Source: Romanomermis culicivorax
Lineage: Eukaryota; Nematoda; Enoplea; Mermithida; Mermithidae
Direction of reading: 5' to 3'
Assembly: GCA_963922205.1 (NCBI GenBank)
Contig: CAWUHX010000012.1
Coordinates: forward strand, 62,001-126,000
Length of the DNA: 64,000 bases
How positions within the stretch are numbered: the stretch's first letter is position 1; the number at the start of each line of letters is the position of its first letter. The position numbers were made by a program, and so were the translations under genes. This document shows, one piece after another, positions 17,842-48,800 of the stretch. The notes below the pieces were generated by a model, which ran no database searches, had not been told where the DNA came from, and saw nothing but the letters and a program-made list of their open reading frames with translations.

Positions 17842-20800
17842 CCAGTTTATCGGAAAATGTTCCGATGGGGCAGAAAACGGAAAATATACTTGCTTGGATA
17901 GTTGCCAGCTAAAAAAAGGGGTGACTAGGTTTTTGGGAACTTGGGTGAGATTTTAAAAAGTGTAGTTTTATAATATTGGATTTTTATCCTTTCCCATTAA
18001 AAATTTTTCCATGTCTGTGAAAAAGTTTATTCTGCAGCTTCGTGCATTTTGTCCTTCCCATGTGTCAACTACAATAAAATTCTTCTGAATGAAAGTTATA
18101 TGCAATGATGCTGATGGCTGACTTCATTCAAATGTATAGAGAAATGGTGAACAAATAGCCAGACTGATTCGAAACTGTGCCTCTTCCTCTAGTTGAAAAA
18201 TAGTGAGGGATGGACAAATTATAGTCATTTTGTTTTTACAACTTATGCCTGTTGTTAAAAAGTCGTCCTTAAGCTTTATAAAAACCTGGGGTTGATTACG
18301 CTACCACAGCCTGAGGATAATCTCAATGTCGGGATTAAATTGCTGATTCTCAGTTTCAAACAATGCCAGGGTAGAGATTATTTTCTTGCAGTTAATAATC
18401 CTTAAGATGCGTCCAAGTTTTGAAAATTTTCGGGCGAAAAATTGATTTTTTGACTTTCCTTCCAAGTTCTATAATGTTGACTTGATCAGACTGTGTAAGT
18501 GTTAGATATCAATGGAAAGCGCTTTTGAAACCCCATATGATGGTGCAACATTTTTTTCTCTTTGATAAGTGCATCACGAGAAACGCCATCACGATTGGCG
18601 AATTTCTTCATCAGCGTACCACAAACTTTATTTGTGGTGTTTAGCGTGACAAAAAGCGCTTATTGATTGGTTGTGTAGGGGTATGGTTCAGAGCCACAGT
18701 TAAACTGTACCGCATCGAATCTGTCGGGGCACGGAGTTTTTTCGAATTTCCAAATTGTTAAATTTGTTTAATAATTTCATAATCAACCTATAAATTTATC
18801 TAATGAAATCTGAGTATTTCAAAATCGTGTACTGCCTAAGTAAGCAAAAGAGAGATAAAACATCTTCCCCAGTTGGTAATGATGTCGGAGAGATTCTTGT
18901 TTTGTATTCTTGTTTTTTTTTGTTTAGAAAGCGTGTTCAGAAAACTGATTTATGTACCACCTGGGTCATATTTCAAGAATAAACTAGCAGTGAGGTTCGC
19001 CCGCTGGGAAGCTTCCTTTCTCGATGAAAAACTTTTTGGCTCCTTGCGACTGAGCAATGCAAAGCAGCAAAATTAAAAGTTTGATTATGTACTGTATAAT
19101 GAAAGGACGATTATCGTGAAAAGCTCGAATTTTAGTGCTTTTTCGAAAAGCTTTTTCCAAAAAATGCCACTGCATGCAAGTAGCATATTACGTATATTAT
19201 GTTTGTAGTGAGGTCGTGATCATCCACTCAAAAGGGCGATATCTCAATTTCTGATCCACTCAAAACATAAACCGCCCCTGAAAGATTGAAGGTACACATC
19301 TGACTGAAGGTACGTTTAATGTGGTTTTTTCAAAATGCTTGCAATAACCAGCTAGCTATTTCATACATATTCGTACGATTTTCTGCATAGCTAACAATGT
19401 TATACAGAACAGAAAACCTGTGAATAAATTGCATTTTTTTTAAATGAAAAATGAGGAAGTTTCATTACATGTGGTAGATTTGGATGTACATTACAATAAA
19501 TAAATTTGATGATAGATGCATAATCAATTTTCATTATTTAATAGAAGTGTAGATACTGCACTGCATGTAACGTTTTAGTTAGAATTATGAACTTCTATAC
19601 TACATTCAATTTCAAATGATCGATGCAGCGGTCAGAGTTTTGACAAACGCAGCCTTACTAGAGATCAAATTCTTTAAATTGATTTTTTGATCTCCAGTTT
19701 TTTTGATCTCTTTAATGATTTCTTTAATGATCAAATTCTTTAAATCATTAAAGAGAGTGAAAGAGTGGTTGTCATGAATGAAAAATGCATTGAATAGTCA
19801 ACGAACGTTCCATAATTTTGGATAAAAGTTTATCTGCAACCTCTGGTACATGCCTAAAAAAGATTATGCATGCCTGAAAAAGAAAACTACTATCGTGAAA
19901 TTACTGTAAGTTATCTTCTGTAGTGGGAAACACTGACCATGGTTTAGAACATGAATCAATATTATGCGATTTCGAGTCTGGAATTTCAAGGTTAGTATCT
20001 TCTTTAAAAAAATCAGAATTAGTTTGTTACATATCCAGTTCAGGTCCGGAAGAATTGACAATGTCTAATTCTTTTACCAAATATGCAATTAATTTGTCGC
20101 AATACCAAATTTATTGAATAAAAATGCAAGAATACACCACTCAGATTTGAAATATGTCTAATCCAACACTTGACCAACGATATGTCTTTCAGTGGCGGTT
20201 TATGTTTGGAGTGTATCAGAAATTGAGATATGGCTCTTTTGAGTGGATGATCACGACCTCACTACAAACATAATATACGTAATATGCTACTTGCATGCAG
20301 TGACATTTTTTGGAAATATTTGTAAGGCATGTTTTAAGTCAATCTTATTTTTGAATTTCGGATCTTTTCTTCATCTGTTAAGGCTCAGTGCAGTTGGAAG
20401 CATACATGGGTGACACCCTTCCCCCAAATTTCAGAGCTGCAAATGTATGGTTGAAAGTAGAGAAGCATGAGAAGAATTTTCGAGAGGGAGAGTTAAAAAG
20501 CAAAAAATGGATTTTTCAAAAAATGTTTATCTTTTTTTTCATGTGTTTTTAGATTTTGAAAAAGTCCATGGGTAGCCAATTGAGTTCAAGAGGCCTGGGT
20601 GTATCCAGAGTCTCAATGGAAGTGTTTACTCCCCACCCTATGTGGGTCAATGGTTGATAGGTGTGCTGACGCACTCAGCTGCAAAATATACTTATCCACG
20701 GACATGAAAAACTTTTAATGAGAAAGAATAAAAATCTAATATTACAAAATTGGATTTTTCAAACTTTAGCTCAAGTTCTCAAAAATCTAGTTCAATTCTT

Positions 20801-20873
20801 TTGCTAGCTTGGTAACTATCTAAGTAAGTATATTCTTCTTTTCTCTGCACCATCGGGGCATTTTCTAATGAAC
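17842..20873. mobile_element. Composite-family TIR element, copy 1
   Basis: The left arm (CAGTTTATCGGAAAATG, then TCCGATGGGGCAGAAAACGG...) and the right arm (...CACCATCGGGGCATTTTC, then TAATGAACTAGT) are inverted copies of a ~230-bp sequence. The arms share GTCTGTGAAAAAG, then TATTCTGCAGCT. The same arms bound 25846-27229 and 46061-47137. The interior is enlarged by a nested element at 19156-20315. No protein was recognised. Confidence 0.7.
19156..20315. mobile_element. 1.16-kb TIR element nested in copy 1
   Basis: The left end TTCCAAAAAATGCCACTGCA continues through ATTACGTATATTATG and GAGGTCGTGATCATCCACTC. The right end is its reverse complement over roughly 130 bp (ends TGCAGTGACATTTTTTGGAA). 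The interior has no coding signal, so it is a non-autonomous DNA transposon. Confidence 0.75.
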
Positions 20874-21079
20874 TAGTCCACCTCTTTTTAGTGGGCCAAA
20901 ACCATGTATAAAAATCTTCATAGGGGCACATTGAAGTTTTGAATTTGGTCATCTTTACATCAAGGAAACAATAAAAACAGTCTTAAAACTACAAATTCTC
21001 ACCTTCTGTAAAAGTAAAAGACGTGTAAACTGCATAGTAAACGACTTTGTAAACAGAATGTAAAGTGACTATATCTGTT
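20874..21079. repeat. Composite-family linker, copy 1
   Basis: Starts CCACCTCTTTTTAGTGGGCC, runs through a GAAGTTTTGAATTTGGTCATC-like stretch, and leads into the satellite array. The same linker follows the TIR element at 47138-47340 and, inverted, at 25690-25845. Confidence 0.65.
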
Positions 21080-21470
21080 GAATTCGCCATGGTCATGAAC
21101 CCTCATTTCAAAAAATCGCAGGAATACCTTTGTTTATACAAATGACAATTTTTTGTGCATTGTGACCACATTCATTGAATACCCCGTAGTCGAAAACCCC
21201 TTCTACCAAAAAATCATAAAAAATCGCTCGTTCAGTCGGAATAAACTTTTTGTGTAAAGTGGCTGCATCCGTTGAATTCCCGCGTTCGAAAACACCTTCT
21301 GCCAAAATATCACGAAAATATGCTGGTCTACACCTGGGATAATTTTTTTGTGTACAGTGAGCGCATCTATTGAATTCCCCACAGTCGGAAACTCCTTCCA
21401 GCAAAAAATCATGAAAATATGCTTATTTACAACCGGGTTAATTTTTGTGTGTAGTGACCACATTCAAGCT
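21080..21470. repeat. ~90-bp satellite array, copy 1 (about 4 units)
   Basis: Units contain CGAAAACCCCTTCTACCAAA, then AATCATGAAAATATGCT, AATTTTTTTGTG, and ATTGAATTCCCC. The sequence matches the arrays at 24410-25690 and 47340-48150. Confidence 0.8.
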
Positions 21471-21680
21471 GTATAGTGCATAGATGGCAAATGCCTCATA
21501 TATGCCGCCATATTGCAACATTTCTCCCCTGTTAGTGGGTGCTATCACATTGTAGTCCACCATGCAATATGGATCCAAACAAAAAACGAAATGAAAGACG
21601 AAACTACGTTTAGGTTTGTTTCAAAAGAAATATGAAACGAGAATCGAAAATCATAGGTGGCGCGATAGCGTCAACCTATA

Positions 21681-22549
21681 ATTACAGATCTGGACACACC
21701 ATAAATGATGATGCAGAAATGGTCCCTTGAAGAGAAAAAATTTTGGCCAAACGTCCAGAGGCAACACAAAAAAAAGTTTGGTACCAAGGATCCTAACGGT
21801 CTCAAAAAATTTTCAACAATTTTTCGAAACTATTTAAGGGCCGAGTTTTACTGCTTAAAAGTAGGGTGCTAAAAGTTTGACTACAGTGGAGCGTGATTCT
21901 CCTAACCGTGAAATCAAACCAATTTCGAAAAATCACGGAGTTGATTGAACAGTTAGATGAAAAATGAAAACTCAACGTTCTGTCATTAGCTTTTCTATTG
22001 ATAGTCATTTTGTATTTTGTATCGCTTATAAGAATGTAAAAATTGAATGTTTTGTGATTATTGGCATAAAGTTTGCAAAAATGAAAAGAAATCTATTTGT
22101 CTTATTGACAAAGCTTTCATATCATCTCACAAAATAAATACTATGAAAGTTTCAAAGCTATAATCTTATTATGGTTACTTGAGTGCACTAATGAAAGATT
22201 TGAACTCCATTTACTCTGAAAGGTCAAAAAAATTTTGCACAGAAATGCATACATTAACAGTTTCGTTTATGTTGCCAAGTTCTCTTAAATGAAGTTTCAA
22301 TGTCATAGTATTGATGATGAAACTTATTTTATGCAAATACGTACAGAAAATAAATTCCTAAAAGTCTCTCATCATTTGCAGGTCTATGAGAAAAACGCGG
22401 CCCTTAAATAGTATCAAAAAATCGTTGAAAATTTTTTGAGACCGTTAGAATCCGTGGTACTAAACTTTTTTCATGTTGCCTTTGGAAAGTTTTTTCTCTT
22501 CAAGGGACCATCTCTGCATCATCATTTATGATGTGCACAGATTTGTAAT
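21681..22549. mobile_element. 869-bp TIR element nested in copy 2
   Basis: The left end ATTACAGATCTGGACACACC and the right end (reverse complement ATTACAAATCTGTGCACATC) extend as ~150-bp inverted repeats through ATGATGATGCAGA-ATGGTCC and CTTGAAGAGAAAAAA. No transposase is present. A clear target duplication was not seen. Confidence 0.75.
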
Positions 22550-22812
22550 ACCATACTTTTTTTCACACAGAGCGCAGATTTGCAAAAATAGTTTATATTC
22601 AATTAATATGTTACTCATGCATTAGTATAAAGATCTGTAATTTGAAGTTTACAGATTAGTACATTTGCAAGTTGATTCATGTAATGGACTATGGTTGAGC
22701 ATTAAACGTGTGATAATCAGAACATGAATTGCAATGATAAAATTTGAATAAAATCTGACTAACAAGTACCTATGAAAGCAAAAAACATGAGTTTAAATAA
22801 TACAGTAGTGAA

Positions 22813-23403
22813 ATGATAATTCATTCACAAGAGATAGCAAGTCATTGCAATTTTGCCCATAATTACAGCAATGCAAATGACCAAGAAAAAGTTGAATACA
22901 AAGGCACTGTTGTAATACCTTACAGTGGCCAACTAACACAGAAACTGAAGCAAATATGTCACAAGTACAAGGTTCGACTAGTTGCCACAAGTAAAGACAC
23001 AATCAGGAAAAGAGTCGGCAAAGTAGCACCACCTAGAAACAAAGAAGATACACAGGGTGTAGTATACCAAGTACCTATGGCTCCATGCGGGGAAGTATAC
23101 ATAGGAGAAACGGACAGAACACCTAAGACCCGTATTGCAGAACACAGGAATGCCCTAAAGAACCTGAGCCTTGAGAAAAGTGGTGTGGCAGAACATTGCC
23201 TATCATGTGGATGTACACCCAATTTTGACAATACTACCATACTTGCCCAAGAGCCTAATGCCTACAAAAAGAAGATCAGAGAAACTATTGAGATGGAAAA
23301 AGTGGGGCCAAAAAATGTAGGTAGTAAGAGCATTGAAATAGGCCACATATGGAACCAAGCATTCCTTAGAAGAGCAACAGACAGGAACCCAAGTCTGAAC
23401 TAG
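22813..23403 (+). CDS. GIY-YIG endonuclease domain, C-terminal part of a Penelope-like RT
   Basis: A 196-residue open frame. Residues ~82-160 hold the GIY-YIG fold signature: VVYQVPMAPCGEVYIGETDR (the GVY and YIG strands with the Cys pair typical of Penelope elements), then TRIAEHRNALKN (catalytic Arg and EH), SGVAEHCLSCGC, and a Glu-rich end. In Penelope-like elements this domain follows the RT and nicks target DNA. The N-terminal ~80 residues (GQLTQKLKQICHKYKVRLV) resemble the RT-endonuclease linker. The RT itself (YxDD) is absent, so this is a 5'-truncated copy. The ORF is intact, suggesting a fairly recent insertion. Confidence 0.8.
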   Translation: MIIHSQEIASHCNFAHNYSNANDQEKVEYKGTVVIPYSGQLTQKLKQICHKYKVRLVATSKDTIRKRVGKVAPPRNKEDTQGVVYQVPMAPCGEVYIGETDRTPKTRIAEHRNALKNLSLEKSGVAEHCLSCGCTPNFDNTTILAQEPNAYKKKIRETIEMEKVGPKNVGSKSIEIGHIWNQAFLRRATDRNPSLN

Positions 23404-23445
23404 TACCCCCCAGTCAGGATATATAGCACTTCTAAACAAGTTACT

Positions 23446-23516
23446 ACCCTCGTGGCCCAGTGGTAGCACTCTAGACTCTCAATCAAACAACCAGAGTTCA
23501 ATTCCCTCCACCTGAG
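23446..23516 (+). other. tRNA-like segment (A and B boxes) in the Penelope tail
   Basis: TGGCCCAGTGG fits the Pol III A box (TRGCNNAGYNG), and AGTTCAATTCC, about 35 bases downstream, fits the B box. A weak acceptor-like pairing surrounds them. The anticodon stem does not pair well, so this is a tRNA-derived or decayed sequence, not a functional tRNA gene. Confidence 0.55.
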
Positions 23517-23543
23517 AATTTTGTAAAAGGAGTTTATAGTCAC

Positions 23544-23573
23544 CTGAGGAAGGTAGTAGGTAGATTACCGAAA
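23544..23573 (+). ncRNA. Hammerhead-like core motif (incomplete)
   Basis: CTGAGGA, then GGTA...TACC able to pair as stem II, then GAAA: the conserved order of a hammerhead ribozyme core. Hammerheads are known in Penelope-like elements. I could not find a convincing stem III and cleavage site, so it may be only a remnant. Confidence 0.3.
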
Positions 23574-23689
23574 CGTTCCATTACCATAACCACTGTATTA
23601 TTTGTTCATTGTGTGCCTATGGGCAGAATAAAAGTGTTATATAATTTTTATGCGATTGTAAGGCCAAGAAATGGAGAATCATAAAGGTC

Positions 23690-24405
23690 ATTTGGCCCCC
23701 ATATTTCATGTCCCCCACCCTAGAGCCAAAACGGTAAGAGCTAGAACCTTTGGGATTTTTCATAATTTTGGGTATAGGGGCAAACTGTGGGGTGCCTTTC
23801 GTCATTTCACCTCTATCTGCAAATGGTGCTCGGTGGGGCTCCAAAAACATTAAAAAAACGTACTTCTTAAGGGCCTCCAGTCCCAACATGCCACACAATG
23901 GGTGTGCCATATCCAAGTACCATACTTCGGCCTAAACATGTTGGGGGTGCAATCTCAAATGCGATTTTTCTATTTTTTAAATATGGCCTCAATTCAATTG
24001 TATGGTGGTCCAAAGACCCGGAAACCGTGAAATTCCACAATTTTGTTATATATTACTGGCTTCAAAAAAATAATTTTTTGCAGCATAATGCACTATAGTC
24101 TGTTTTTCTTGAAATGCTTCTAAATAATGAAAGTGAAAAGCAAGTAGTATTTTAGATTTTCACGATTTGCTGATAAACAATATGTCACATAGGACTGGAA
24201 ATTTGTGAGCATACTGGCCTAACTTTTAACAATTTTGCGAGTGAAAAGTTTTACAGCAAAAGCTCTATGTAAACGATTTTGATGACAGTATTGATTTGCG
24301 TCACTTTTCTATTTGGAAGCATTTTATAAAAAACAGACTATAGGGTGCCAAATTTTTTTTGCAGTTTCAATTGAACTGGTAGTCTTATTAGGATTTAGGA
24401 TTCAC
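23690..24405. repeat. Composite-family unique module, copy 2
   Basis: Inverted relative to 48160-48645. Shared landmarks: GAGCCAAAACGGTAAGAGCT, GGTGCCTTTCGTCATTTC, CTTCGGCCTAAAC and GCAGCATAATGCACTA. It is split at GCACTA by a family A MITE (24094-24343); the copy at 48160-48645 shows the unoccupied site. Confidence 0.75.
24094..24343 (+). mobile_element. Family A MITE inserted in the composite module
   Basis: Starts TATAGTCTGTTTTTCTTG and ends AAAAAACAGACTATAG. The homologous site near 48205 lacks it, which confirms the boundaries and a TA-type insertion. Confidence 0.85.
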
Positions 24406-24409
24406 AAAA

Positions 24410-25690
24410 TTTCATCCCGGGTGTAAACAAGTGTATCTTCATGATTTTTTGGTGGAAGGGGTTTTCGACCGCGCGGAATTCAATCACTACACAAAAAAAA
24501 TTATCCAGGATGTAAACAAGTGCATTTTCATGATTTTTTCGTGGAGGATGTTTTCAACCTTGGGAAATTCAATGAATCACTTTACTCAAAAAATTATCTG
24601 AAATGTAAACAAATGTATTTTTGTGAGGAGGGGTTTTCGGCTACGGAGAATTTGATGGATGCAGTCACATTAACCAAAAAAATTATCTTGAGTGTAAACA
24701 AGCCTATTTCAGCGATTTTTTGTTGAGGGGGTTTTCAACCACGTGAATTCCATGGTCATTTTAAATGAAAAATTATCCTGCATGTAAAACAAAGGTATTT
24801 CCAGGGTCTTTTTCCAGAAGGGAATTTCGACCACTGGGAATTCAACAAATGCGTTCACTTTACACAAAAAAATTATCCCGAGTGTAAACAAGTGTATTCT
24901 TGTAATTTTTGGAGGAAGGTGTTTCCGAATGGGGGTTATTCAATGGATGCAATTATTTTACACAACAAAAAATTATCGTGAGTGAAAACAAAAGTGTTTC
25001 CATGATTTTATCCTGGAAAAGGTTTTCGACCGCAGTGAATTCAATAGACGTGATCACTTCGCGCAAAAATTATACTACGTATAAACAACTGTATCCCTGC
25101 GATTTTTGTGGAAGTGGGTTTTCGGTTTTGGAGAATTCGATGGATGCAATCATGTCACACAAAAAATTATCCTGAATGTAAACAAACGAATTTTCCCGCC
25201 TGTTTGTTGGGAGGGGTTTTTGACCACGGGGGGAGGAGTGGAATTCAATGGATGCAGTCACTTTACATTAAAAAATTATCCCAGGTGTAAACAAGCGTGT
25301 TTCGGGATTTTTTGGTGGAGGGGATTCTGGACCAGGGGTTATTCAATGGATGCAGTCACCTTATACAAAAAAAAATTATTCCGAGTGTAAACAAACGAAT
25401 TTCCCTAATTTTCCTGGTGGAAGGAGGCTTTATGTAAGGTGATCACGCTCATTGAATTATCAACTACAGAGAATTCAATAGACGCGACCACTTTACACAA
25501 AAGATTATCTTATGTGCAAACAAATGTATTTCCGCGATTTTTGAGGGAAGGGGTTTCTGACCATGTAGAATTCAAGGGACGCGATCACTTGCACAAAAAA
25601 TTTTCTGGAGTGTAAACAAAGGTATTTCTGCGATATATTGGGTTGAGGGGTTTTTGATCATGAAGAATCCAATCAATATTCTAAGTACTA
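24410..25690. repeat. ~90-bp satellite array, copy 2 (about 14 units)
   Basis: Successive GTGTAAACAA motifs are 88-100 bp apart. Each unit carries GATTTTTTGGTGGAGGGG, GTTTTCGACC, GAATTCAATGGATGC, CAC-TTACAC and AAAAAATTATCC. Units are 75-85% alike by eye. Short Cys/His-containing frames arise from the repeat and are not genes. Confidence 0.85.
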
Positions 25691-25845
25691 TGCAGTTTAC
25701 AGATCTTTTACTTCCGAAAGTGAGAATTCATAGCTTTAAGATTGTTTTTTACTCTTTCTTCGATGTGAAGATGGAAAAATTTAAAACTTCAATGTGCTTC
25801 TGTGACGGTTTTCACGCATGGTTGAGGCCCACTAAAAAAAGGTGG

Positions 25846-27229
25846 ACTAGTTCATTAGAAAATGCCCCGATGGGGCAGAAAAAAGAATATACTTGCTTAG
25901 ATAGTCACCAAGCTTGAAAAAGGAGCGGACTAGATTTTTGAGAGTTGGGTTAAAGTTGGAAAAAATTCACTTTTCTAATATTGGATTTTCATTTTTTCTC
26001 ATTAAAAAATTTTCGATGTCTGTGAAAAAGTATATTCTGCAGCTGAGTGCATCAACACACTTTCTAACCAAACATGTGCATCTCCGAAATGTTAAGGAGG
26101 GCACTTGGATGGACCCTGGTTTTTTGACGTTTTTTGAAATAACAAATTAAAAAAAGTTGGCCTAAAATTTTTTTTCATACAAAGTTTTCCAGTTTTAAAA
26201 CTCTTGGGGTAGTTTGCACCACCATGTCCCCCCTCACACATGTGTCCTTCCAACTCGTTGAACTTTTTCACTAAATTTAGTGTTAATAAAACAGTAATCC
26301 AGTGTGGAAAAGTGACAAATAAAATCTCACTCAGGTTTTTTAGAAGAAAAGCTACAGCACAAATTCCACTTAGAACTAAATTGATTGTGCAGGATCTATT
26401 TAATTCAGTCATTTTATCTAGCACATGGTATAGAATTCACTATTTTTTTATACAACACATGGTGTAGAATTTACTGATTAAAGGCTGTAAACAAATTTAT
26501 TCTCTTAATATAGGCGAAATCAAGTTATCACGAGTTTTTTTTTAAATATTGAACAAAATAGCAATTCACAGTTTTTGGATTTAAACTGAAACTTGCAGAA
26601 AGAGTACTTTTTGCAGGATTTCAGACGGGAAGCAATTTCACCCATCCCGATCGCTTCCGTCCTGCTCTCAAAACAGTCGTACTGTTGCCGTGGGAGTGCG
26701 AGTAGAGTGGGGGAAACGCGGGAACCGGATTTGGTGCACATATCTGATATAGGCATGGCTGAATCAGGAGCTTTTTAATGGCATTTTTGTATTCTTTACC
26801 CTGTTGCCCCATTTGCTTATGGTGCCCAATGACTGCAACCAAGGCTCAGTTGCACTAAAGCGGTCTAAGCTCGAGCTCAGAATAATCTCGAACAAAAAGG
26901 CGACTCGGTTTTATCTCAAGTTTGGTATAATGTCAGTGTCATCAGGATTATAACGAATTGAATGTCGAGATTATCCCCGGCCCGAGCTGTCTGGTTGCAC
27001 TAACATTTTTGCACAATAGGACACGATGCTGCATAATATACTTTTTCATAGGCATGAAAAATTTTTTAATGAGAATGAATGAAAATCCAATATTAGAAAA
27101 GTGAATTTTTTCCAACTTCAACACAAGTTGTTAAAAATCTAGTCCGCTCCTTTTTCAAGCTTGGTGACTATCCAAGCAAGTATATTCTTCTTTTTTCTGC
27201 CCCATCGGGGCATTTTCTAATAAACTAGT
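25846..27229. mobile_element. Composite-family TIR element, copy 2
   Basis: Bounded by ACTAGTTCATTAGAAAATG and its complement (CATTTTCTAATAAACTAGT), with CCCCGATGGGGC just inside each end. Arms are ~230 bp. The interior holds a GC-richer patch at 26620-26780 and a small repeat (26845-27000) with a counterpart at 46460-46640. Confidence 0.75.
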
Positions 27230-27720: not shown

Positions 27721-28145
27721 CTAATTTTGATTCAGAAGAAATTGAATACTTCTGAAAAAATTAAAATTTTTCATGAAAATTTTTTTATTGTTTTTTAAAT
27801 TTAGTTTACATCGCGACCAGAACTTCTCATTCGAATATGCTTTCATCGGATTCGATCTATTCAGGAAATGAAGAATATGTAGTTGATTTCCTGCTTCATC
27901 TGCGTTTAAATCGTCCAAAAAATAAACAAAATTTTTTGTTAAGCAACTAATAAACCAACGAAGCAATCGCAAAAAACGGATTCAATCGGCTTTTTAAACC
28001 TGGGGTTGGGCGGGATTGAAAACTTCAATTATCACCGATTATAATAATCCCGATTATAATAATCTAGCTTGCTGACGAGCATACAGATTGTTTTAATCCC
28101 CGATTAAACTAATCGGAGTTTTATCGGCCAACGAGCATACCGGCC
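27721..28145 (-). pseudogene. PIF/Harbinger relic: transposase N-terminus and right TIR
   Basis: The minus-strand frame carries NRSNPMKAYSNEKFWSRCKL, clearly related to the first transposase exon at 40990-41212 (NRTNPLEKYSDIQFWSRYKL). The element end at ~28129-28145 (AACGAGCATACCGGCC followed by TTA) matches the Harbinger terminus TTCGTGCATACGGCCC+TTA. Subterminal GATTATAATAATCC repeats lie just inside. The DDE core is absent, so the copy is dead and internally deleted or truncated. Confidence 0.65.
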
Positions 28146-28148
28146 TTA

Positions 28149-28511
28149 AGGCCCTGTCATACTTCGCCGCGCGGCGCCGTGCGGTACCAGCCGGCGCCGC
28201 GCGGCGCCGGTTGTCCTATTCATACTAAAATGCGGCGCCGGTAGGCGCCGCGCGGTACCGCTTTTGAAGTATGAATAGGTTTTTGTAATTTTTGCGGCGC
28301 CCCGTCAGGTTTCAACTAAACCAATACACATTTTTGAGAAGAGCAAAATCCAAAAGTAAAAAAGCGGCGCCGTACGGCGCCGCGCGGCGAAGTATGACAA
28401 GCCACCGCACGGTACCGCGCGGCGCCGCCTGTTAGTATGAATAGGACAATCGGCGCCGCGCGGCGCCGGCCGGTACCGCACGGCGCCGCGCGGTGAAGTA
28501 TGACAGGGCCT
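28149..28511. mobile_element. GC-rich foldback MITE with TTA target duplication
   Basis: Inverted ends AGGCCCTGTCATACTTC...GAAGTATGACAGGGCCT are flanked on both sides by TTA (28146-28148, 28512-28514). The arms are packed with nested palindromes such as GGCGCCGCGCGGCGCC and CGGTACCG, so nearly the whole 363 bp can fold on itself. The TTA duplication fits PIF/Harbinger mobilisation. The GC content contrasts sharply with its surroundings. The right end of a Harbinger relic abuts its left TTA. Confidence 0.85.
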
Positions 28512-28514
28512 TTA

Positions 28515-29300
28515 GACGCGTACATCCACTTTTCGTATGTCCGAAGGGATCACTAACAATCAATCCCTGTAGCCAATTTTTTTCTATATCAAACTTGAAA
28601 CACTGGAAAATGCTTAGACAGAAAAAACAATCGTCCTTCGATGCACCCTTTTTCGCAAATTTACAGTAGAAGATAGACTTACAACTTGATAAAAAAGATG
28701 TCCACGTGTATTGCAGCTCTTTCATTAGAAAAACCGCCTGTTTACGTTTCACGTCTCAAACATACCAATTACCCTATCCATACTCGATTGATTTTCACAC
28801 TAAACTCGACTAAAAGAACGTTGCTAACGTCGAACTTACTTCTCCAAATTCATTTAACAGTATCGAAGGTCAGTACTGTGATTTTTCTCACCATTTTCAC
28901 ACGATACAGAATCGACGAAAAAGGAAGTAATAAGAACACTTTTAATCTGAAATACGAAATAGTAGCTGAATCCTATTATCAGAAGAGTATCTGCAATGTC
29001 AGGTAAAAGTTTACTTTGGTCTCACTGAGACTGCAGAAAGAGTGTGAAAAATAAAGTATTATTTCTCAAATTTAACCATTTTCGTGGAGAAAAAATTTTT
29101 GATGTTGTAATTATGCAATATATTTAAAATGTCGTAAGTTTACATCATGCAGTTTACGACTCTCAGTTTCGGGGGATTGAAAATCATTTCATCATAAAAC
29201 TGGCTGGAGAGCGGTCGGTTTTTGCGGTCGCTCTTTCAATCGATTCGAAATTCGAAGCTTTCACACGCAAGGTATAGTACCACAAACTTTTGACCTCGAA
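28515..29300. other. Upstream region of the plus-strand phosphatase gene
   Basis: AT-rich, presumably with the promoter. Open frames on both strands have no recognisable motif. Confidence 0.35.
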
Positions 29301-29306: not shown

Positions 29307-29325
29307 TACCAGGCCAAAGAAAAAA

Positions 29326-29820: not shown

Positions 29821-32800
29821 GTGAGTTTTGGACCAGTCATACTGTAGCTTATTGTGTAGCCGATTTGTTTCCCTTTTGTTGATTATCTACGTATGAAAAA
29901 TTTCGCTTTTTGTTGGGGATGTACTGAATGGCAAGAGTGGTCCATGCTAGTAAACCAGAAATTATCCAGTTCAGCCAAGAGAGTCAAATTTCACAATCAT
30001 GAATTAAGAAATGATTATTTGATAAAAATCATTTACATATTTCATCTGTGAGTTGCACCGTAGCAGTTTACTATACTCAACTTACTTTTATGAGATGCAG
30101 TAGATAAGTTTCAGTACTTATGGTATTTGAATTTGTTATACCACTGAAATTTGGAAATATGGCTGCTGCAAATTATTTTTCATTGAAATATACTATACTT
30201 AAACTCCTTTTCGATGAACTTCTACGTTCATATCTCAAAATTTCAATCAATCTATCAGAAAGGTTTCAAATGAATCGCAAAAAAAGACTACACCAATGGA
30301 AAAGCAATAACTACTTATTCGATATTTACACCCTGTAAAATAACCCCCATATTAAAAACCCCGCCATTTCGACGCCCGACATTATATAATTTCATATGCA
30401 AAAAAATAAAAAATCGGCATTATTTCTTCACTCGCTTTTTTAGGTTTTAGTCGTTGTGAAAGTGTATATAAAGAAAGAATAAAATGCACTGCTAATAAGA
30501 GAAAGAAAAAAGAGACAGGAAAAGAGCTGCAAAAATAAAAAATAATTGCAGAAGATGAAGAGGGCGTTTTTCTACTGAAAATGTCGAAAGTGATGCTTCA
30601 GAAAGCATATGATTGTGTCCCGTTACCTCAAGTGTCCCGTTACTCCAAGTGTTCCGTTACGCCGAGTATACCGTTACTCCGATTAATGCAATAAATTCCT
30701 TAACTCTAAGTAATGTAATTTTTTTGCAGAAATAGGATATCCCATTATTCCAACAATGCTATATGAATCTTCTAAAATTTCCCTTAGATACTTTAACACT
30801 TTAACATAACAACTTAAACAAACACTTGAGCAAAATACAGAAAACGAAAGAAAAATAAATACAGAGGAAAGTATCAGACAAAGAAAGAGCAGCATGAACA
30901 CAAACTAAAACATTAACAAAGACACAGAAAACAAAGAAAAGTAATAGTTAAAAAAAGAAAATGATAAGAAGTAAAGGAAATGAAGAAAACTGAACAAAAA
31001 AATAAAACGAAAAAAACGCAGTTTGACGCCGAAACAACCGGCGCCAGCGCCCAAATGATCCAGTGCGAACTGGCTGGCCGAAGTGTAGCATCGAAACCGC
31101 GGCGCCGTAACGTTGTCTTAGAGAAACCGTTGTGCAATGATAAAAATTGAGAACCAAGGATATATGCACGAGTCAGTAATTTGATTATATAACTTTTCAA
31201 AAAAAATGAAGCACCCTAATTTTTTGATGCAACATGAGTGCAGGACATTATTCATAGTTTCCCCTGTAGCGCACTTTGCAACATACCTTTTTTATGCATG
31301 ATAGCCATTTGGACATGCTATCGAACAATGCGTATTGTGTTTATACCTATATTTATTTTTTTTGTTTTTTTTCTATATTAGCGTCAGTGTAACCTGAAAA
31401 AAACTTTTTCTGAGGATGGTACCGAATATCGTACTCTTTTGAACGGGTTTTTCGATTCTTATTGCAATTTTAAAAATATATAGCATTGTTGGAGTAGCGG
31501 GACACATGGTGTAATGAGAATTTAAAAAATATAGTTATAGCATTCTTGGGCTAATGGGACGCTTGGAGTGGCGGGACACTAGGTAAAACGGAACACTTGG
31601 AGTAAAGGGACATAAAATGCAAGAAATAAAAAATAGCTAATTATAGTCTTTTTTCTTGAAATGCTTCCAAATTATGAGATCGAGAAGCAAGCACTATTTC
31701 GGACTGTTAAGATTTTCAGCTAAACCGTATGTCACATAGGGTAGAAAACCTGTAGATTCATTCAATAAACCTTCGGCTATGTTTTGTAGTCAAAAGATTT
31801 TGTAAAAGATTTCAACGACAGTGCTGATTTTTGTCAATTTTCACTTTACAAGCATTTCGTAAAAAACAGGCTATAGGTTAAGCAGTTTTATTTTCACACG
31901 TAAAAATATTAGACAGAACAAATTATAACCATGGATTCGTTATAAAGTTTTTACTGTCGTTTTGCGACGCAAAAAATAAGAATAAATTTATATAGAGAAC
32001 GCATGAGATGAAAAAAGAAAGAAAATTAAGAAAATTGAAGAAAAATTAACGAAAAGAAAAAGTTTGGTCCGAAATGACCGATGCCGAAATGGCTGGCGCC
32101 GAAACGTCCCTTTCGGATTTCACCACGTTTCGTTGTGTAAATACGTGGTGTTACATTTATTGAACTTATGTAAATTTGAATGCAAACAGATTCTTAAGAA
32201 CCATGCAATGTAATGTTGATATGCCTCACAACAGGGAAAATGTACACATTATTATGGTAAATAAAATTAATTTAAGTCTAACCAATGAAAGTAAAGATTC
32301 GCCACTGATTTTTCGTTAACCTAATTACGATCAAAGTCCAATCAATTAAATTGAACGGCCAGGTCCACAAGCCATTAAAATATTCATGAAATTGATTGGG
32401 ATTAGAGTAAGGATAACTGGAAGAAAAATCTTTCCACTCCGATTTTTGAAAGACGAAATCTTACAGAGCGAAATTGCGCCTCCGGCTCCGTCAGCCTCCC
32501 AATACAACGTGGGCGTGTCGGCGGCGGCGTCGGCCTACGCCAAATCGGTGCGTAATTTCGACAATTATTCCTGCGTGGGTCCTGTGAAGAAAGATGCCGA
32601 CAAATCGTTCGCCAAGGCCGTCCAGCAAATGCAGGCGGCCAGCAGATTGGGCCCTGCGGGAGGCGGCAGCGTCATGGCCAAGAAGACGGGCAAGCGAGCG
32701 TTCATCATGCGCCACGGCGAACGCATGGACCGTCTGTTCCCCGAATGGTTGACCATGGCTATTACCGACCAAGTAAGCTGTTTGCAAAAGACACCGTACC

Positions 32801-36155: not shown

Positions 36156-36560
36156 TACTTGTGATTAAGTTATATTTAACTTTGTAACCGAATGTTACAA
36201 AAATCCATCTAAATTTTCCTTGAAATGAGCCGAGCGACCACGTTTTCGCTCCTGATTCATTACCGATATTTCTGCCATAAGTGATTGACGTCACTTGCTC
36301 ACTTTATTTTATAAGATCATGATCGAAATCAGAAGAGCAAGTTCTATTCCATAGATTTTTCAACTTCCCACGGAAATGTTTCCTCTCGCAATAAACTGGC
36401 GAAATTCGTCCATAATGTACACTAAAATTTGGATAAATGCAGATTACGTCGAGTTGTGGAGTGATTCCATCAATGGAATGATTACTTGAGATGGCAACAT
36501 GTACTACATTCCATAGGTCGTTGTAAATAGTACAGAAGAAGTTTGTGTGAAAAACACTAC

Positions 36561-36806
36561 TATAGTCTGTTTTTCTTGAAATGCTCCTAAATAATAGAAG
36601 TAAAAAGCAAGTAGTATTTCAGATTTTCACGATTTTCTGACAAACAATATATCGTATAGGACTGGAAATTTGTAAGCATACTGACCTCACCTTTAACAAT
36701 TTTCCGAGTAAAAAATTTTACGGTAAAAGCTATATATAAACGATTAAACATTACTGATTCGTGTCACTTTTCTATTTGGAAGCATTTTATAAAAAACGGA
36801 CTATAG
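36561..36806 (+). mobile_element. Family A MITE
   Basis: Starts TATAGTCTGTTTTTCTTG and ends AAAAAACGGACTATAG. 246 bp. Confidence 0.8.
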
Positions 36807-36848
36807 TCTTCTCTGAGATCTAAAGCCATAATGCAAGTTTCAGAGTAA

Positions 36849-37691: not shown

Positions 37692-37828
37692 CCTGTTTAT
37701 GAAGTTTCTTGAAAAGCATATAAATAATAAGAGTGGAAAGCAAGTACTCATTCATATTTTTTTCAATTTTCTGCTCAACCACATCCCACATAGAACTGCG
37801 ATTTTGTGAGCATACTCCACTGGCCTTA
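37692..37828 (+). mobile_element. Left half of an old family A MITE split by Harbinger
   Basis: TTTCTTGAAAAGCATATAAATAATAAGAGTGGAAAGCAAG through GTGAGCATACTCCACTGGCC. It continues at 41427-41590 (AGTGTCTTTTTTGTGCGAAAAA onward), which proves the Harbinger boundaries. Confidence 0.75.
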
Positions 37829-39345: not shown

Positions 39346-39544
39346 CTAAGAGGAACCTGTGCAGAAACAGTGAACATTCCACACGATTACATGCAAATGA
39401 ACCACCACTGATAAACTGGCAATAATTTGCATAATTTTTGTGCACAAAACAACTAATCAGCACTAGCATGGTTTCACTTACTACATCTCCAATTACTGCT
39501 TGATTTTATTAGAACGCTAAAAAAGCAATAGCTAATTATAAAAG

Positions 39545-39758: not shown

Positions 39759-39759
39759 A

Positions 39760-40948: not shown

Positions 40949-40989
40949 TGGTGGCTCATTTGCATAATAAATTTTGTCTTTGGTCATAC

Positions 40990-41212: not shown

Positions 41213-41426
41213 GACACACAAAAAGGAAAACTGTACCTGCTCTAAATTTTATAAAAAAACACACTAAACACGCCACTAATCTTGGGGGAGAGCAGGATTA
41301 AAATCGCGAGTTAACTTAACACGGATTAGCTTAACTCGCCTTTGGGCATACCGCTTAACTTTAACACCGCTTAAAATTTCGTTTTTAACACGGATTAAGC
41401 CTAACTCGCCTTCGTGCATACGGCCC

Positions 41427-41590
41427 TTAGTGTCTTTTTTGTGCGAAAAATTCTACAGTAAACGCTTTATTCAAACGCTTTTAACGACACTACTAATTCG
41501 TATCATTTTTCAGTTTGGAGGCATATTTGTAGATAAATTTTGTAATAAGACCTGAAATTTAAAAAGTCCAAATATCGAACTATAGCCCAT
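41427..41590 (+). mobile_element. Right half of the split family A MITE
   Basis: Starts at the TTA duplicate and carries TGCGAAAAATTCTACAGTAAACGC, then TTTCAGTTTGGAGGCAT, the normal right-half landmarks of family A. Confidence 0.7.
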
Positions 41591-41760
41591 TTAATTTAAA
41601 ATGATAGAAGCAGCTAAAACCAAGAAATAGGTTCAATTTGATACGCAATTTGTACCTGGTAGAAAACTTTATACGTCAGAAAAACGTAAAATTTCTCCAT
41701 GTGAATGGGAAATGCCAAAATTGTTTTAAAAAACCGATCATTTTAAGAAACCATACATGT
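41580..41760. mobile_element. Family B repeat, left half
   Basis: CTATAGCCCATTTAATTTAAAATGAT and TTTGATACGCAATTTGTACC match the first half of 15563-15962. The second half is at 44690-44832, separated by later insertions. Confidence 0.55.
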
Positions 41761-42712: not shown

Positions 42713-44669
42713 GGCCCAAATTATAGAAAGTCGGTTAAACACGGGTAAGAGTAAGAGGAAAATGGCGGGTAAAATCCTAGGTAAATAAAAGTCGAGTAAA
42801 ATCTCGGGTAGAATGGTGGGTTAAGGCTGAGTAAAAATTGGGAAGAATCGCAGGTAAGATCATAGGTTAAGGACGGCTAAAATTGGCGGTAGAAAAAATA
42901 ACCCATGATTTTACCCATTTCGAGACTACAGAAGGTGGGCAACGTTTGGATAAAAGTTGCCGATGAAAAAGACATGAAAATAACCAGCGATTTTACCCTG
43001 CTATTAGCAGGGTTATATTAACAAGAAGTTTATATTTTTCACGTAAAGCTCGAATTAGATTGATTCTTTGCATGCCGTCGATCTGTTGCAGGTTAAACTG
43101 AATCTGATGTTAGTGATGGCAATGACGAGAAGCCTGAAAATTCAAATTTTTCGGAAATGCATAGATCATTATTGCACATATTTCAGTACAACAGCATCAG
43201 CATAAATTTATGATACCAGTGGGTTACTGTCGAAGAGCACCTTTTCCAGCTACACTATTGCTCGATAGTGCAACAATTTTGAAACATTATTCTTACCTTG
43301 TCAAACTCCGCTGAGATAAAAGTAATCCGCAGGTTTTTAACATCAATATTGTGATATGTGAATCGGATGAAAATTGTGGCTTTTGATGAAAACGTTTGAA
43401 GCTTGAATAGTCTGCCAGAAAATGCTCCTTAAAAACAATGACTCTCACGGTCTTTGAGTTAATAAACAAATACCTATAGTATAACAGCTGAAACGCACTA
43501 TAGTCTGTTTTTCATACGGAAGAATTTTTTACTGAAAGATTGTAGTCAAGTTTTGGAAATTTTCAGTTCTACGTGACATATTGCTCTGCGGAAAATCGTA
43601 AAAATGTAAAATATGGATTGTGTTATGGCATTAGAAGCTGCAATCAAAAAACAAAGTGAATTCATCACTCTGACGCATGACGAATTGTAAATAGTGATTA
43701 TTAAGCAAAAGAATGCCTCCTTAAGCTCAGTGTAATCGTATCACAAAATTCTCTGGAGTGAATTTCTTCCTACACACAATACAGCAAGGCATTAAGAATT
43801 ATTTAAGGATAACTGCAGTAGCAGGAGCATGAGCTTATGGCTCACATAATCGGGGAAGTAGCACATGGTCATGAGGCATACTGTTGCCTTGAACCGTAAG
43901 AAATGTTCCATTCTGAGATACCGGTATTTTATTTTTGGAATACCCTGCTCATACGACTAAAAACAAGCTCACCATGAAAAACATATATAAAAATGGTGGG
44001 TTGGGAACCCACCACTTTCCTACGTTCTGTAATACGAAAACTAAAAAATTCGAGTAAATTTCCAAGCTAAACATGGGTAAAATCGTTGGTAAAAGACCGG
44101 TGAAATCATGGATAAAATCGCGAGTAAAACTTCGGGTTAAAGATGGGTAGAATCATAGGTAAAATTGTAGATAAAAGGCGGGTTAAACATGGGTTACCTT
44201 CATACATGCACGTGGGGGGGGTTAGGGGGGGGGTTTTGACCCCCAGCAAATTCTTGCTGACCTCCAGCAGATTTGACTCCCCTAGCAATGATTGAGAAGT
44301 TGACGAAAGAAAATGATCAAGAGAGAAGAGAAAGTCGTCATGAAAATGGACATGATGCTGTGGTTTAGCAATTTTTTAAAGAAAGCATACTTGATTCCAA
44401 AAGAGTAACATTAAAAGTTTAAAAAATGCGGTCTGAGCAAATTATTTAACATATCTGACTAATATATTTGTAAGAATATGCTGTTTGGATGTTAGAAAAC
44501 CTTTCTAAGACCTTTCTTTTCATTATCAAGAATGAAAAAAAATTTTGTATTCCACCCCCCGTCCTGGCTGACCCCCAGCAGAATTTGCATGCTGTGCATG
44601 TATGGTTACCTTATCCGAGATTTAACTTTTACCTTACTTTTATTTTACCCGCGTTCTGTAATTTGGGCC
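42713..44669. mobile_element. 1.96-kb TIR element with GGGTAAAATC subterminal repeats
   Basis: Ends GGCCCAAATTATAGAA and, inverted, GGCCCAAATTACAGAA. Just inside the left end (42730-42900), and again at 44040-44205, lie runs of degenerate 20-25 bp GGGTAAAATC-xx-GGTAAA units. The interior holds a truncated family A fragment (43497-43620) and a G-run. No transposase was recognised. Confidence 0.65.
44213..44256 (+). repeat. G-rich tract with quadruplex potential
   Basis: Two runs of 8-9 G separated by TTA, followed by TTTTGACCCCC. Long G runs could form a quadruplex or, with the adjacent C run, a hairpin. The run lengths may be inaccurate because of homopolymer sequencing error. Confidence 0.6.
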
Positions 44670-44689
44670 TTAACCAGGTTATTGAAGGA

Positions 44690-44832
44690 AATTTCTATTC
44701 TGTTTGCCGTTCACTGACGAAAAAAATTATTCTGTTGATTTCAGTAATAAGTTTACTAGTTTTTTCCGTATTGAACTTACGTTGAAAGGACTGCTGCATA
44801 AATCATTTCAAAATGAATGGAGTATAGTGTAC
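44690..44832. mobile_element. Family B repeat, right half
   Basis: CTATTCTGTTTGCCGTTCAC, TTTTTCCGTATTGAACTTACG and TTCAAAATGAATGGAGTATAG. It completes the copy begun at 41580 and dates the 42713-44669 element as younger. Confidence 0.6.
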
Positions 44833-45447
44833 TGCCCATCTTACTGTTGAAGTAATTTATAGCTAATGATATAATCGCCGAAATTATCGCTTTTTGACAT
44901 TTTCAATATAACCATCATTGGCTAGCCTCAGATAAATGAGAAATCGGATTGTAGCTAGTAAAAATTTATGTGATCAATTAAATTCTAAAAAAATTGAATT
45001 TGTCTGAGGTGCATGAAGCAAAAGAATGTGAGTTGAAGTACTGTCTACATCTTATGGATTTATTCATGAAACATTGTGCTCGCGAAAAGTATCAAAGAAT
45101 TTTATGAAAAGCATATAGCCAGGTGGTTTCACTCAATGCTCACCCAAATAATCCATGAATTTTGGATGTATGTAGGTGAAATTGTCAAAAAACTTGAACT
45201 TCAAATATCTGCTGTTTAGTGTAGCATAATATATTTTTTAAATCACCCCGCATGAACTACAAAAGTGAAAAATCAACAAAATAATAGAATAACGAAAAAA
45301 TTGATGTAGAGGACTGTAAAGTGACTATAAAACTTTTTGAGATTCAAGTTTCGAATTTGTATCAGCGATCTATGCCCACGAGCTTGACTCTCTCTCGAAA
45401 AATAAATTGATTCGTATTTACACTTCAATAGAATTTTCAAAACTCAC
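44833..45447. other. Intergenic or intron of the membrane-protein gene
   Basis: Any following exon of the minus-strand membrane-protein gene should start below 45448, but none is recognisable. Confidence 0.35.
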
Positions 45448-45897
45448 GAGTGTATTGAGATTCGTCGACTTTCTTTTTGCTTTTCTCTTTGTCGTCGGTG
45501 GCCCGTGGTACCGCCGAAAAAGAAACCATCATCAAATCGTCCTTTTTACTGGTGTAAGCGTCTTTCATTGCGCTGGCGCTGACGTCCATTTTACAGCCAC
45601 TTTTCAAATCATCATTTTTGTTACCCCTTTTGGGCACGATTTTATTGTAAGTGCTGACGTTTTTGTTTCTCTGGGATGAGGAATCTTTTTTCGTCACCGG
45701 GGCGTTTTTATAGATGGTAGCCGGATCCATCTCCAAAAGCATGGGATTTTGGGCCTCATCATCTTCTTTGGTCGTCGTCCTAATCATGGTTTTTCTGAGG
45801 AATGAAGGGACGGGTGGTGACGAAGCTTTAAGCAGCGCCGGTGAACGCGAGCCCAACTTTTCTTTGGATTTTGATTCCGACGTTTCGAGCATAGAGT
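45448..45897 (-). CDS. Membrane-protein exon 3
   Basis: Acceptor TTTTTCTAG|ACTCTATGC at 45897/45898; donor ACACTC|gtgagt at 45447/45448. 450 nt of uninterrupted coding sequence, Lys/Asp/Ser-rich. GC content and codon use resemble the phosphatase exons. The open donor implies at least one more exon downstream. Confidence 0.65.
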
Positions 45898-48800
45898 CTA
45901 GAAAAAAGATGATCAACTTCATGGCTCAAATGATGTGCAGGTACGCTGAAAACTGAATATTCCGAAAAAGCCAGTTTGTTCTTAAATGTTTCTAAACAAT
46001 AAAAGTTGAAAGCAAGTACTATTCCATATTTTTACCATTTTAGACTAAACAATAGGTTACACTAGTTTATTAGAAAATGCCCCGATCGGGCAGAAAAAAG
46101 GAGAATATACTTGCTTCGACAGTTGCCATGGTAGAAAAAGAAGTGGACTAGATTTTTGAGAACTTGGGTCAAAGTTGGAAAAAATTCACTTCCTTTATAT
46201 TGGATTTTCATTCTTTCTCAAAAAAATTGTCTATGTCTGTGAAAAAGTATATTCTGCAGCTGAGTGCATTTTGTCCTTCAACTGGCATCGACTACAGTAA
46301 AATTTTTCTGTATGAAAATTATATGCACCTGACTTCAAGTGTAAAGAAATGGTAAACCGATAGCATTCTAACTTCCGACCAATTCAAAACTCCTGCCTTT
46401 CACACTAGCTGAAAAATAGTGAGGGAGGCATATTACAGTCATTTTCAGAACGATAAAGGAACCTGAGGTTCATTGCACTAACCCAACATGAGGATAATCT
46501 CAACATCGGGATTAAATTGATGATCCTGAGTTAAAGCTATTCACAATGTCCAAATTATTTTCTTTCAATGCACAAATCATACTCACCTCAGGATTAACTA
46601 AAACTGAGGTTTAAGTTCGAGTTTGGGAATCACAGAAATTTTCATATTTATTTGCTTTAGAGACAAGAAAATTATGCGAAAATGTCACTTGATTCTTTTT
46701 GTTGACACCAAATTCAGGTGAAATGTTTAACACCATTGGAAGCAAACATGTGTGAGAGGAGACACGAGGGTACAAATTTCCACAAGGGTTTTGAAACCGG
46801 AAAATTTGTTATGCAAAAAATTTTTTGGTCAATTTTTTTTGTTTTTTTTGTCTCACAAAATGCTAAAACACCAAGGTCCACGCCTGTACTCTCCTAAAAA
46901 TTTCAGAGATGCACATGCTTGGTTGGAAAGTGTGTTGATGCACTCAGCTGCAGAATATACTTTTTCACAGGCATGGAAAATTTTTTTGAGAAAGAATGAA
47001 AATCCAGAGTGAATTTTTTCCAACTTTGACCCAAGTTCTCAAAAATCTAGTCCACTTCTTTTTCTACCATGGCAACTGTCGAAGCAAGTATATTCTCCTT
47101 TTTTCTGCCCGATCGGGGCATTTTCTAATAAACTAGTTCACCTCTTTTTAGTGGGCCTCAACCATGCACAAAAACTTTCATAGAAGAACATTGAAGTCTT
47201 AAATTTGGTCATCTGCACTTCAAAAAAAAATTTAAAAAAAAACTTTGAGCAACGAATTCTCACTTCCGGCAAAAGTAAAGGATGTGTAAACCGCATAGTA
47301 CTTAAAAAACAGTGTAAAGATACTGAAAGGTGACCATATCTATTGAATTCCTCATGGTTTAGAATCCTTCAACCCAAAAAATCGCAGAAATACCTTTGTT
47401 TACACAAATGACTTTTTTCGTGTAAACTGACTCCGTCCATTGAATTTCCCATGGTCAGAAACATTTTCCCTCAAAAATCGCAGAAATACATTTGTTTACA
47501 CTCAATATGAATTGATGTGTAAAGTGATCACTTTCATTAAATTCCCAGTGGTCGAAAACCCCTCCCACAAAAAACTCACGAAAACAGGCTTGGTTAAATC
47601 CGGAATAATTTTTTTGTGTAAAGTGAAACATCCATTGAATTCCCCATAGTCGAAAACCCCTTCCATAAGAATCACGAAAATACGCTAGTTTACACCCGCG
47701 ATAGTTTTTTTTATAAGATGATCGCATTCATCAAATTCTCCGTGATCGAAAACCCCGTCCACCGGAAAATCACGAAAATACGTTTGTTTACAACCGGGAT
47801 AAGTTTTTGTGTAAAGTGATCGCATTCATTAAATTCCCCGTGGTCGAAAACCCCTTCCATCAATAAATCATGAAAATACGTTTGTTTACACACGGGATAG
47901 TTTTTGGTGTAAAGTAATCACATTCATTGAATTCCTCGTTGTCGAAAATCCCCTCCTCAAGAAAATTATGGCAGTACGCTTGTTTACACCGTGGATAATT
48001 TATTTGTGTAAAGTGAGGACGTCTATTGAATTCCCTGCAGTCGAAAACTCCCTCCACTGAAAAATCACGGAAATACGCTTGTTTACACCCGGGATAATTT
48101 TTCGTGTAAAGTGACGGCGTCCATCAAATTCCCAATGGTCGAAAACCCTTGCAGCCTAAAAATCCCAATAAGGCTACAGGTTTATTTGAAACGGCTAAAA
48201 AATTAGTAGTGCATTATGCTGCAAAAACTAATTTTTTTGAACCCACAAGTATTATATAACAAAATTGGGGAATTTGGCTTTTTCCGGGACTTTGGACAAC
48301 CATATAATTGAATTGGGGCCATATTTCAAAGAAAAAAAAATTCGCATTTGAGATTACACCCCCAAGATGCTTAGGCCGAAGTATGGAGGTTGGATATGGC
48401 ACACCGATTGCTGGGCATGGTGGAACTGGGGGGGCCTAAAAAGGTGCGTTTTTTACCTGTTTTTGGGGCCCCACCGAGCACCACTTGCAGATAGAGGCGA
48501 AATGACAAAAGGCACCCCATAGTTTGCCCCTATGCCCGATATTATGCAAAAAAACCCGAAGGTTCTAGCTCTTACCGTTTTGGCTCTAGAGGGGGGGACA
48601 TGAAATTTGGGGGCCAAGTATATTATAGGTTGACGCTGTCGCGCCACCTATGATTAGACTGCAAATTTGTGAGCATTCTCAACTATGTAACCTTTAGCAA
48701 TTTTTTGAGGGAAAAATCTTACCGTAAAAGATTTGTGTAAACGATTTTGAGGATAGTACCGATTTTTATGATTTTTCAATTTGGAAACATTTTATAGAAA

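Follow-up and report, generated by a model that had tools for sequence, protein, structure and literature searches.

A non-autonomous Helitron family with an inverted second 3′ end and an internal satellite array in Romanomermis culicivorax

Self-comparison of a 64,000-nucleotide stretch of the nematode Romanomermis culicivorax (assembly GCA_963922205.1, contig CAWUHX010000012.1, positions 62,001 to 126,000; the 64-kb stretch as a whole is termed the window) reveals three copies, c1, c2 and c3, of a single composite repeat, with c2 oriented opposite to the others. An earlier note on this DNA had described the composite as a long terminal-inverted-repeat (TIR) element joined to a linker, a 90-bp satellite and a unique module, at 17842-21470, 21648-27229 and 46061-48645. 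The parts do occur in the same order in all three copies; c1, however, holds only three of the four, since the unique module is absent and its homology ends inside the satellite array at about 21466. The bounds are corrected to 17842 onward for c1, 21651-27228 for c2 and 46062-48653 for c3, the arms measure about 208 bp instead of 230 bp, and the satellite unit is about 97 bp long. The linkers are 77-79% identical among the copies, the unique module is 83-86% identical between c2 and c3, and the outer and inner arms match each other at 93% in c3, 92.7% in c2 and 75.4% in c1. The composite is almost certainly a non-autonomous canonical Helitron, of the Helitron1 (HLE1) kind, whose 3′ region carries an inverted second copy of its own last 208 bp. 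The features of the three copies are collected in Table 1.

The assignment to Helitrons derives from the ends, which appear on the strand opposite to the one read in the earlier note: a 5′ terminus A/TCATAGGTGGCGCG (the slash marks the junction of host and element) and, at the 3′ end, a hairpin, 12 nt and CTRR/T. Both c2 and c3 begin with TCATAGGTGGCGCG directly after a host A, and the last bases before the host T are CTAG in c2 and c3 and CTGG in c1. The hairpin that lies 12 nt ahead of the 3′ end is TGCCCCATCGGGGCA in c2 (fold z -4.03), has a shorter stem in c3 and is decayed in c1; the c2 counterpart of the c3 5′-end hairpin folds with z -3.11. In the available parts of two published accounts, canonical Helitrons are marked by 5′-TC, 3′-CTRR, a hairpin 10-12 nt before the 3′ end and insertion between A and T (PMC5148889, PMC4778049). 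Read with the TIR on the 5′ side, the composite had a 3′ hairpin and corresponded to no known family; reversing the strand gave exact Helitron ends. A scan of the window for hairpin, spacer, CTRR and T returned five sites, four of which are element tips (two outer, two inner), compared with 0-2 sites in each of 10 simulated sequences of equal size, and the 3′ tip itself, at up to 3 mismatches, was found 6 times against 0.09 expected.

The same unit recurs throughout the genome (359,112,060 bases in 595 contigs searched). At least 25 near full-length copies besides c3, at 95-98% identity, were present among the 40 scored of 4,694 first-look candidates. With up to 2 mismatches allowed, the 5′-end pattern matches the genome 1,903 times and the 3′-end pattern 3,998 times, and neither reversed pattern matches at all; the resulting 3′/5′ ratio of 2.1 is what a family whose members mostly have two 3′ ends should show. 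In the 20 fetched copies L009-L028, CTAG/T is found in all 20 and A/TC in 19, the lone exception being L014, whose match ends before reaching the 5′ end. A further 16 loci from the same match list (L029-L044) display the 5′ A/TC in 14 cases, L042 being truncated there and the flank printed for L035 coming from another stretch; CTAG/T is present in 9 of the 10 having a 3′ end, L042 again excepted. The consensus of the 20 copies and c3, which defines young subfamily A, is 2,600 bp long, and single copies lie 0.58-2.32% from it (c3, 1.08%). This low divergence points to a recent burst. The sole inverted pair reported in the consensus matches positions 1-208 to 876-1083, which places each member within the 3′ part, and no such pair links the element's two termini. 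What had been called a TIR element is thus the last 208 bp of the Helitron and an inverted second copy of them, 667 bp apart.

Variants in the match list broaden this picture. Five copies (L036, L038, L039, L040 and L041) combine an intact 5′ end with an early 3′ end, which fits behavior reported for Helitrons and which later deletion may also account for. Copies B (L029-L032 and L034) have a different stretch between the arms, and L042 is truncated at its 5′ end. L033 and L035 have a complex make-up, in which pieces of the Helitron are repeated or inverted, and may represent nested insertions. From lists of at least 100 places each, we sampled two arm pairs lacking a perfect 5′ end in the list (L069 and L070), both of which have the linker and array beside the inner arm, and two arrays lacking a perfect end in the lists (L071 and L072), both of which lie inside the Helitron. 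The earlier proposal that array and element move together therefore holds as sampled, for the near full-length copies and these two arrays show the parts together and not mostly apart. The free ends sought genome-wide do recur at fixed positions, although they are two unlike Helitron termini and not the tips of a TIR. Scans for relatives in other collections, of viral contigs and of genome contigs, yielded no exact matches to the family.

The insertion of c3 records its own empty site. This copy interrupts a miniature inverted-repeat transposable element (MITE), which it entered at CA/TAG, between A and T, with no target duplication; the TTA duplication suggested earlier is absent. The joined flanks of c3 equal the length of the uninterrupted MITE copies, with two base differences near the junction. 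When these joined flanks were searched against the genome, 39 of the 40 matches scored, among 2,959 first-look candidates, crossed the junction uninterrupted, the remaining one being the right flank at the locus itself. This empty-site comparison covers one insertion, that of c3.

These results bear on three other accounts of the composite. The earlier note proposed a long-TIR transposon, of DDE or foldback type, that had captured a neighboring satellite and module. The near-perfect inverted arms of about 208 bp in the young consensus would suit such an element, and so would the outer tip, which marks the composite's free end on the left. Yet the mobile unit is bounded by two unrelated termini that obey Helitron rules (3′ in 20 of 20 copies, 5′ in 19 of 20). 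In the copies inspected, linker follows the tip of the inner arm, so the TIR part was never seen alone there. Foldback elements such as Tetris and Galileo have long inverted arms together with tandem repeats or inversions, and the arms bound the element, whereas the arms of the present family both fall within the 3′ part of a unit with Helitron ends. Inverted repeats at both ends accompanied by a target duplication, the marks of MITE and foldback elements, were not found. The empty site of c3, with no duplication, and the fixed asymmetric ends together refute a TIR origin, which we regard as extremely improbable. The idea of a mobile non-autonomous family survives in part: array, TIR-like part and module do travel together, but as segments of a Helitron that holds both arms in its 3′ part. 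Three copies within 31 kb, two of them adjacent, might suggest that an old composite locus was duplicated locally, a segmental duplication that the earlier note had named as part of the finding that would overturn its proposal. Comparison of the whole window nonetheless finds no long flank homology among the three; one arm alignment continues beyond the tip for about 17 bases. The spread of the same unit with identical ends over the genome refutes this account, leaving it scarcely conceivable.

A Helentron or HINE (Helitron2) element, from a group in which central satellite-like arrays are well known, would share the asymmetric ends, the central tandem repeats and the hairpins near both ends. 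Against it stand the 3′ CTAG with its hairpin 12 nt upstream and the A/T target. The part of the source available attributes asymmetric terminal inverted repeats to Helitron2 elements and places the insertion site of FoHeli1/2 between TNAT and T (PMC5148889). Neither inverted repeats at both ends nor a target other than A/T was found in the present family, and subterminal repeats of a dozen bases received no special search. We consider a Helentron very improbable.

The feature that sets this Helitron apart is the inner arm, which on the opposite strand is a complete Helitron 3′ end with its hairpin, 12 nt, CTAG and T. The two arms are 98.6% identical in the young-subfamily consensus, where they agree at 195 of 195 compared positions, although the arms of subfamily A and of c2 are only 86-89% identical; within individual young copies, 0 to 10 bases separate the two arms, a level expected from later mutation. 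Immediately inward of the arms, each side has its own sequence, ATCGTGCAT outside and TGAGTGCAT inside. These side-specific boundaries are common to A, L069, L070, c2 and, nearly, c1, with small changes, so the layout was in place before these lineages diverged; B (L031) departs from the others at its inner boundary. Had the arms been diverging since a time before the subfamilies separated, they should resemble each other less than is observed; they have therefore been made alike again. The sites that differ between copies tell the same story, tending to carry one and the same base in both arms of a copy: consensus A compared with L069, L070, c2 and c1 gives 13, 16, 16 and 11 copy-specific sites and no arm-specific site, and L069 compared with L070 gives none of either kind. 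When A, B (one copy, L031), L069, L070, c2 and c1 are compared in all 15 pairings, which are not independent of one another, 140 sites are copy-specific and 4 arm-specific. The site patterns indicate that the two arms of each copy evolve in concert, and the likely cause is repeated arm-to-arm gene conversion or template switching. Both processes are ordinary causes of such concerted patterns.

Arms might also seem concerted only because each burst freshly re-duplicated the 3′ end, with no continuing conversion. This would yield near-identical arms in each subfamily equally well, and the unlike inner boundary of B is in its favor. On the other hand, the sequences just inside each arm are common, for each side separately, to A, L069, L070, c2 and nearly c1, and the outer arm of c3 has the TGAG of the inner side and then continues with outer-side sequence, the kind of junction expected of a conversion tract. 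Fresh re-duplication is accordingly an unlikely explanation. An origin of the inner arm from an inserted second Helitron was also considered and rejected, as the interiors of A, L069, c2 and c1 hold no trace of a 5′ end; their best matches have 6, 7, 6 and 6 mismatches of 16, a level that shuffled sequence reaches too. In L037 the segment between the arms is inverted relative to the 23 other inspected A-type two-arm copies (L009-L028, L043, L044 and c3), which fits recombination between the arms; the match ranking favors colinear copies, and this case therefore gives no rate.

The satellite array behaves as part of the element. It comprises 13 units in c2, 9 in c3 and 4 remaining in c1. The first unit of c3 is closest to the first units of c1 and c2, and vice versa, and c2 and c3 are likewise reciprocal best matches in their second units, while mean unit identity is about equal within and between copies (67-72%). 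This resemblance across copies indicates that the array predates the movement of c1, c2 and c3 and was not remade at each place. Its length is 838-840 bp in all 21 young copies, which makes it a stable cargo that did not grow during the recent burst. The monomer core matches the genome 1,858 times. At least 100 perfect monomer matches listed, on contigs C1-C24, are scattered, with no dense cluster and at most 3 within 200 bp, and among them there is no evidence of the family seeding long satellites.

The reading as non-autonomous, made already in the earlier note, is upheld by c3, which has no stop-to-stop frame of at least 150 amino acids. The genome holds 44 matches to PF14214 from RepHel genes, with open frames up to 2,018 amino acids, compared with none in 14 control genomes, and from these two observations we infer mobilization in trans by RepHel. 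By analogy with published Helitrons, a RepHel protein would nick at the 5′ TC, rolling-circle synthesis would peel off a single strand through module, array and linker, with the array copied as passive cargo, and the strand would be cut at the hairpin and CTAG. As the earlier note had anticipated, the arms can pair into a long hairpin, with a stem of 208 bp. The single-stranded intermediate could fold in this way, with the CTAG/T cut site at the foot of the hairpin, and such folding would plausibly favor arm-to-arm conversion or template switching. It is conceivable, though rather doubtful, that the mirrored 3′ end is a working part, in which the single-stranded hairpin at CTAG/T would secure termination and cross-hairpin repair or template switching would keep the arms a self-correcting pair.

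Two observations on the RepHel loci stand apart from this family. In L058, a long RepHel frame is followed downstream, at 7451 and 9239, by two 3′ ends that resemble those of Helitrons but belong to another type (TCCTCGAAGAGGA, 8 nt, CTAG or CTAA, T). At 889933-924150 of contig C52 (genome G000), three RepHel matches fall in about 34 kb, with open frames of 1,186, 2,018 and 2,013 amino acids.

Several points weigh against our interpretation. c1, L014, L042 and the truncated copies are without one end, and canonical Helitrons are without inverted repeats, one of which is present here, though not at both ends. The 4 arm-specific sites all fall in pairs with c1 (3 with c2 and 1 with L069), the most decayed copy. 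The window copies alone are ambiguous, with 5 fully informative sites grouping within the copy, 9 by side and 5 otherwise; privately shared sites number 11 within the copy, 13 left-left, 4 right-right and 6 other, 10 of the 13 left-left sites lying beyond position 200, where the arms end. The arm pattern became clear once the genome copies were added, and conversion between arms is itself deduced from patterns of sites. The autonomous relative with the same arms that the earlier note envisaged was not found at the RepHel loci scanned: three 10-kb loci, nine upstream stretches, which may stop short of the true 5′ ends, and ten short Rep stretches, a set without L050 and L053, include none with these ends. 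Neither end has a convincing match there: the closest differs at 4 of 16 positions for the 5′ terminus (L066) and at 5 of 19 for the 3′ terminus.

Tandem arrays within Helitrons and Helentrons are already documented, as far as the available parts of the sources extend (PMC7492417, PMC4595182, PMC12628747). The bat element Helraiser/Helibat1, a Helitron1, shares with the present family the 5′-TC and CTAG-3′ ends, a hairpin shortly before the 3′ end (11 nt in the bat element), insertion between A and T, and early or new 3′ ends (PMC4778049). The accessible text on that element describes no internal inverted second 3′ end or satellite array, and its protein is known (PMC4778049), whereas none of the RepHel loci scanned here proved to be a partner. 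Cg_HINE of the Pacific oyster likewise has a central tandem array between fixed flanks that is carried genome-wide by rolling-circle elements, but it is assigned, in the portion of the paper available, to the Helentron superfamily, unlike the present family with its Helitron1 ends (PMC7492417). In Caenorhabditis elegans, short satellites are embedded in Helitrons and propagated along with them; those families have other unit lengths (for example, 11 to 40 bases in their names), and the available excerpt mentions no mirrored 3′ end (PMC4595182). Some copies of FoHeli in Fusarium have multiple termini, and FoHeli1/2 have hairpins at both ends, a partial likeness; FoHeli elements are nevertheless of Helitron2 type with short asymmetric inverted repeats, and the multiple termini named in the accessible part are 5′ (PMC5148889). 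Judged by titles and abstract openings, none of the open-licence papers listed in our literature searches describes a mirrored 3′ end that is kept matched in Helitrons. The composite is hereby placed in a known class, and its exact ends let about 1,900 candidate insertions be annotated in the genome. The family also offers a natural experiment on Helitron termination, with two opposed 3′ ends kept over several bursts while their arm sequences co-evolve, and it allows tests of what the 3′ hairpin and single-strand folding contribute.

Table 1. Coordinates in the window of the three Helitron copies, their parts and associated insertions
Feature	Position	Strand	Remarks
Helitron copy c3, complete, young subfamily A	46062-48653	-	5′ TC at 48653; 3′ CTAG at 46065-46062
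c3 outer arm, Helitron 3′ terminal region	46062-46269	-	left TIR of the earlier note
c3 3′ terminal hairpin	46078-46092	-	TGCCC..GGGCA, 12 nt ahead of CTAG
c3 inner arm, inverted second 3′ terminal region	46938-47136	+	own hairpin and CTAG, T after
c3 linker	47137-47324	-	common to all three copies
c3 satellite array	47325-48171	-	9 units of about 97 bp
c3 unique module, Helitron 5′ region	48172-48653	-	terminus A/TCATAGGTGGCGCG
c3 5′-end hairpin, imperfect stem	48620-48653	-	folded on + strand, z -1.92
MITE left portion, split by c3	45971-46041	+	
MITE right portion, split by c3	48657-48814	+	
Helitron copy c2, older, both ends kept	21651-27228	+	later insertions inside
c2 outer arm with 3′ hairpin	27028-27228	+	CTAG at 27225-27228, then T
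c2 inner arm, inverted second 3′ end	25847-26052	-	
c2 satellite array	24406-25678	+	13 units
c2 portion of 5′ module	23692-24095	+	86% to c3
MITE inserted in c2	24094-24344	+	same family as MITE split by c3
c2 later insertions	21681-23691	+	element with inverted ends (21681-22549) and stretch with 200-amino-acid frame
Helitron copy c1, most decayed, 5′ part gone	17842-21466	-	3′ end CTGG/T at 17842
c1 outer arm (3′ end)	17842-18047	-	
c1 inner arm, inverted second 3′ end	20671-20876	+	
c1 residual satellite array	21059-21446	-	4 units
Later insertion within c1	19154-20316	.	132-bp inverted ends
Other MITE copies in the window	93-344, 24094-24344, 36559-36806, 31642-31877, 37705-37816		last partial

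The window contains further elements in addition to the Helitron copies. The 200-amino-acid frame inside c2, at 22801-23403, gave no match in a Pfam search; we take it to resemble a Penelope-type GIY-YIG end. Searches of the window for Rfam families and for tRNA genes were negative. A 271-amino-acid frame at 38530-39345 matches the Pfam family DDE_Tnp_4 and is presumably PIF/Harbinger-like. The stretch 58104-64000 resembles a long terminal repeat (LTR) retrotransposon, with a 1,664-amino-acid frame matching protease, reverse transcriptase and RNase H and direct repeats of about 126 bp, 91% identical, at 58104-58229 and 63876-64000. A very GC-rich inverted repeat of the GGCGCCGCGCGG type at 28145-28515, with 112-bp arms at 89% identity, is probably a separate foldback or MITE. 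A 4.5-kb tandem duplication (2082-6614 and 6715-11249, 99.3% identity) reflects either a recent event or an assembly effect. Members of a dispersed repeat family, 67-79% alike, lie at 13487-13879, 15564-15952, 41579-41741, 44669-44833 and 51474-51868, and a TTTCC microsatellite of 409 bp occupies 1348-1756.

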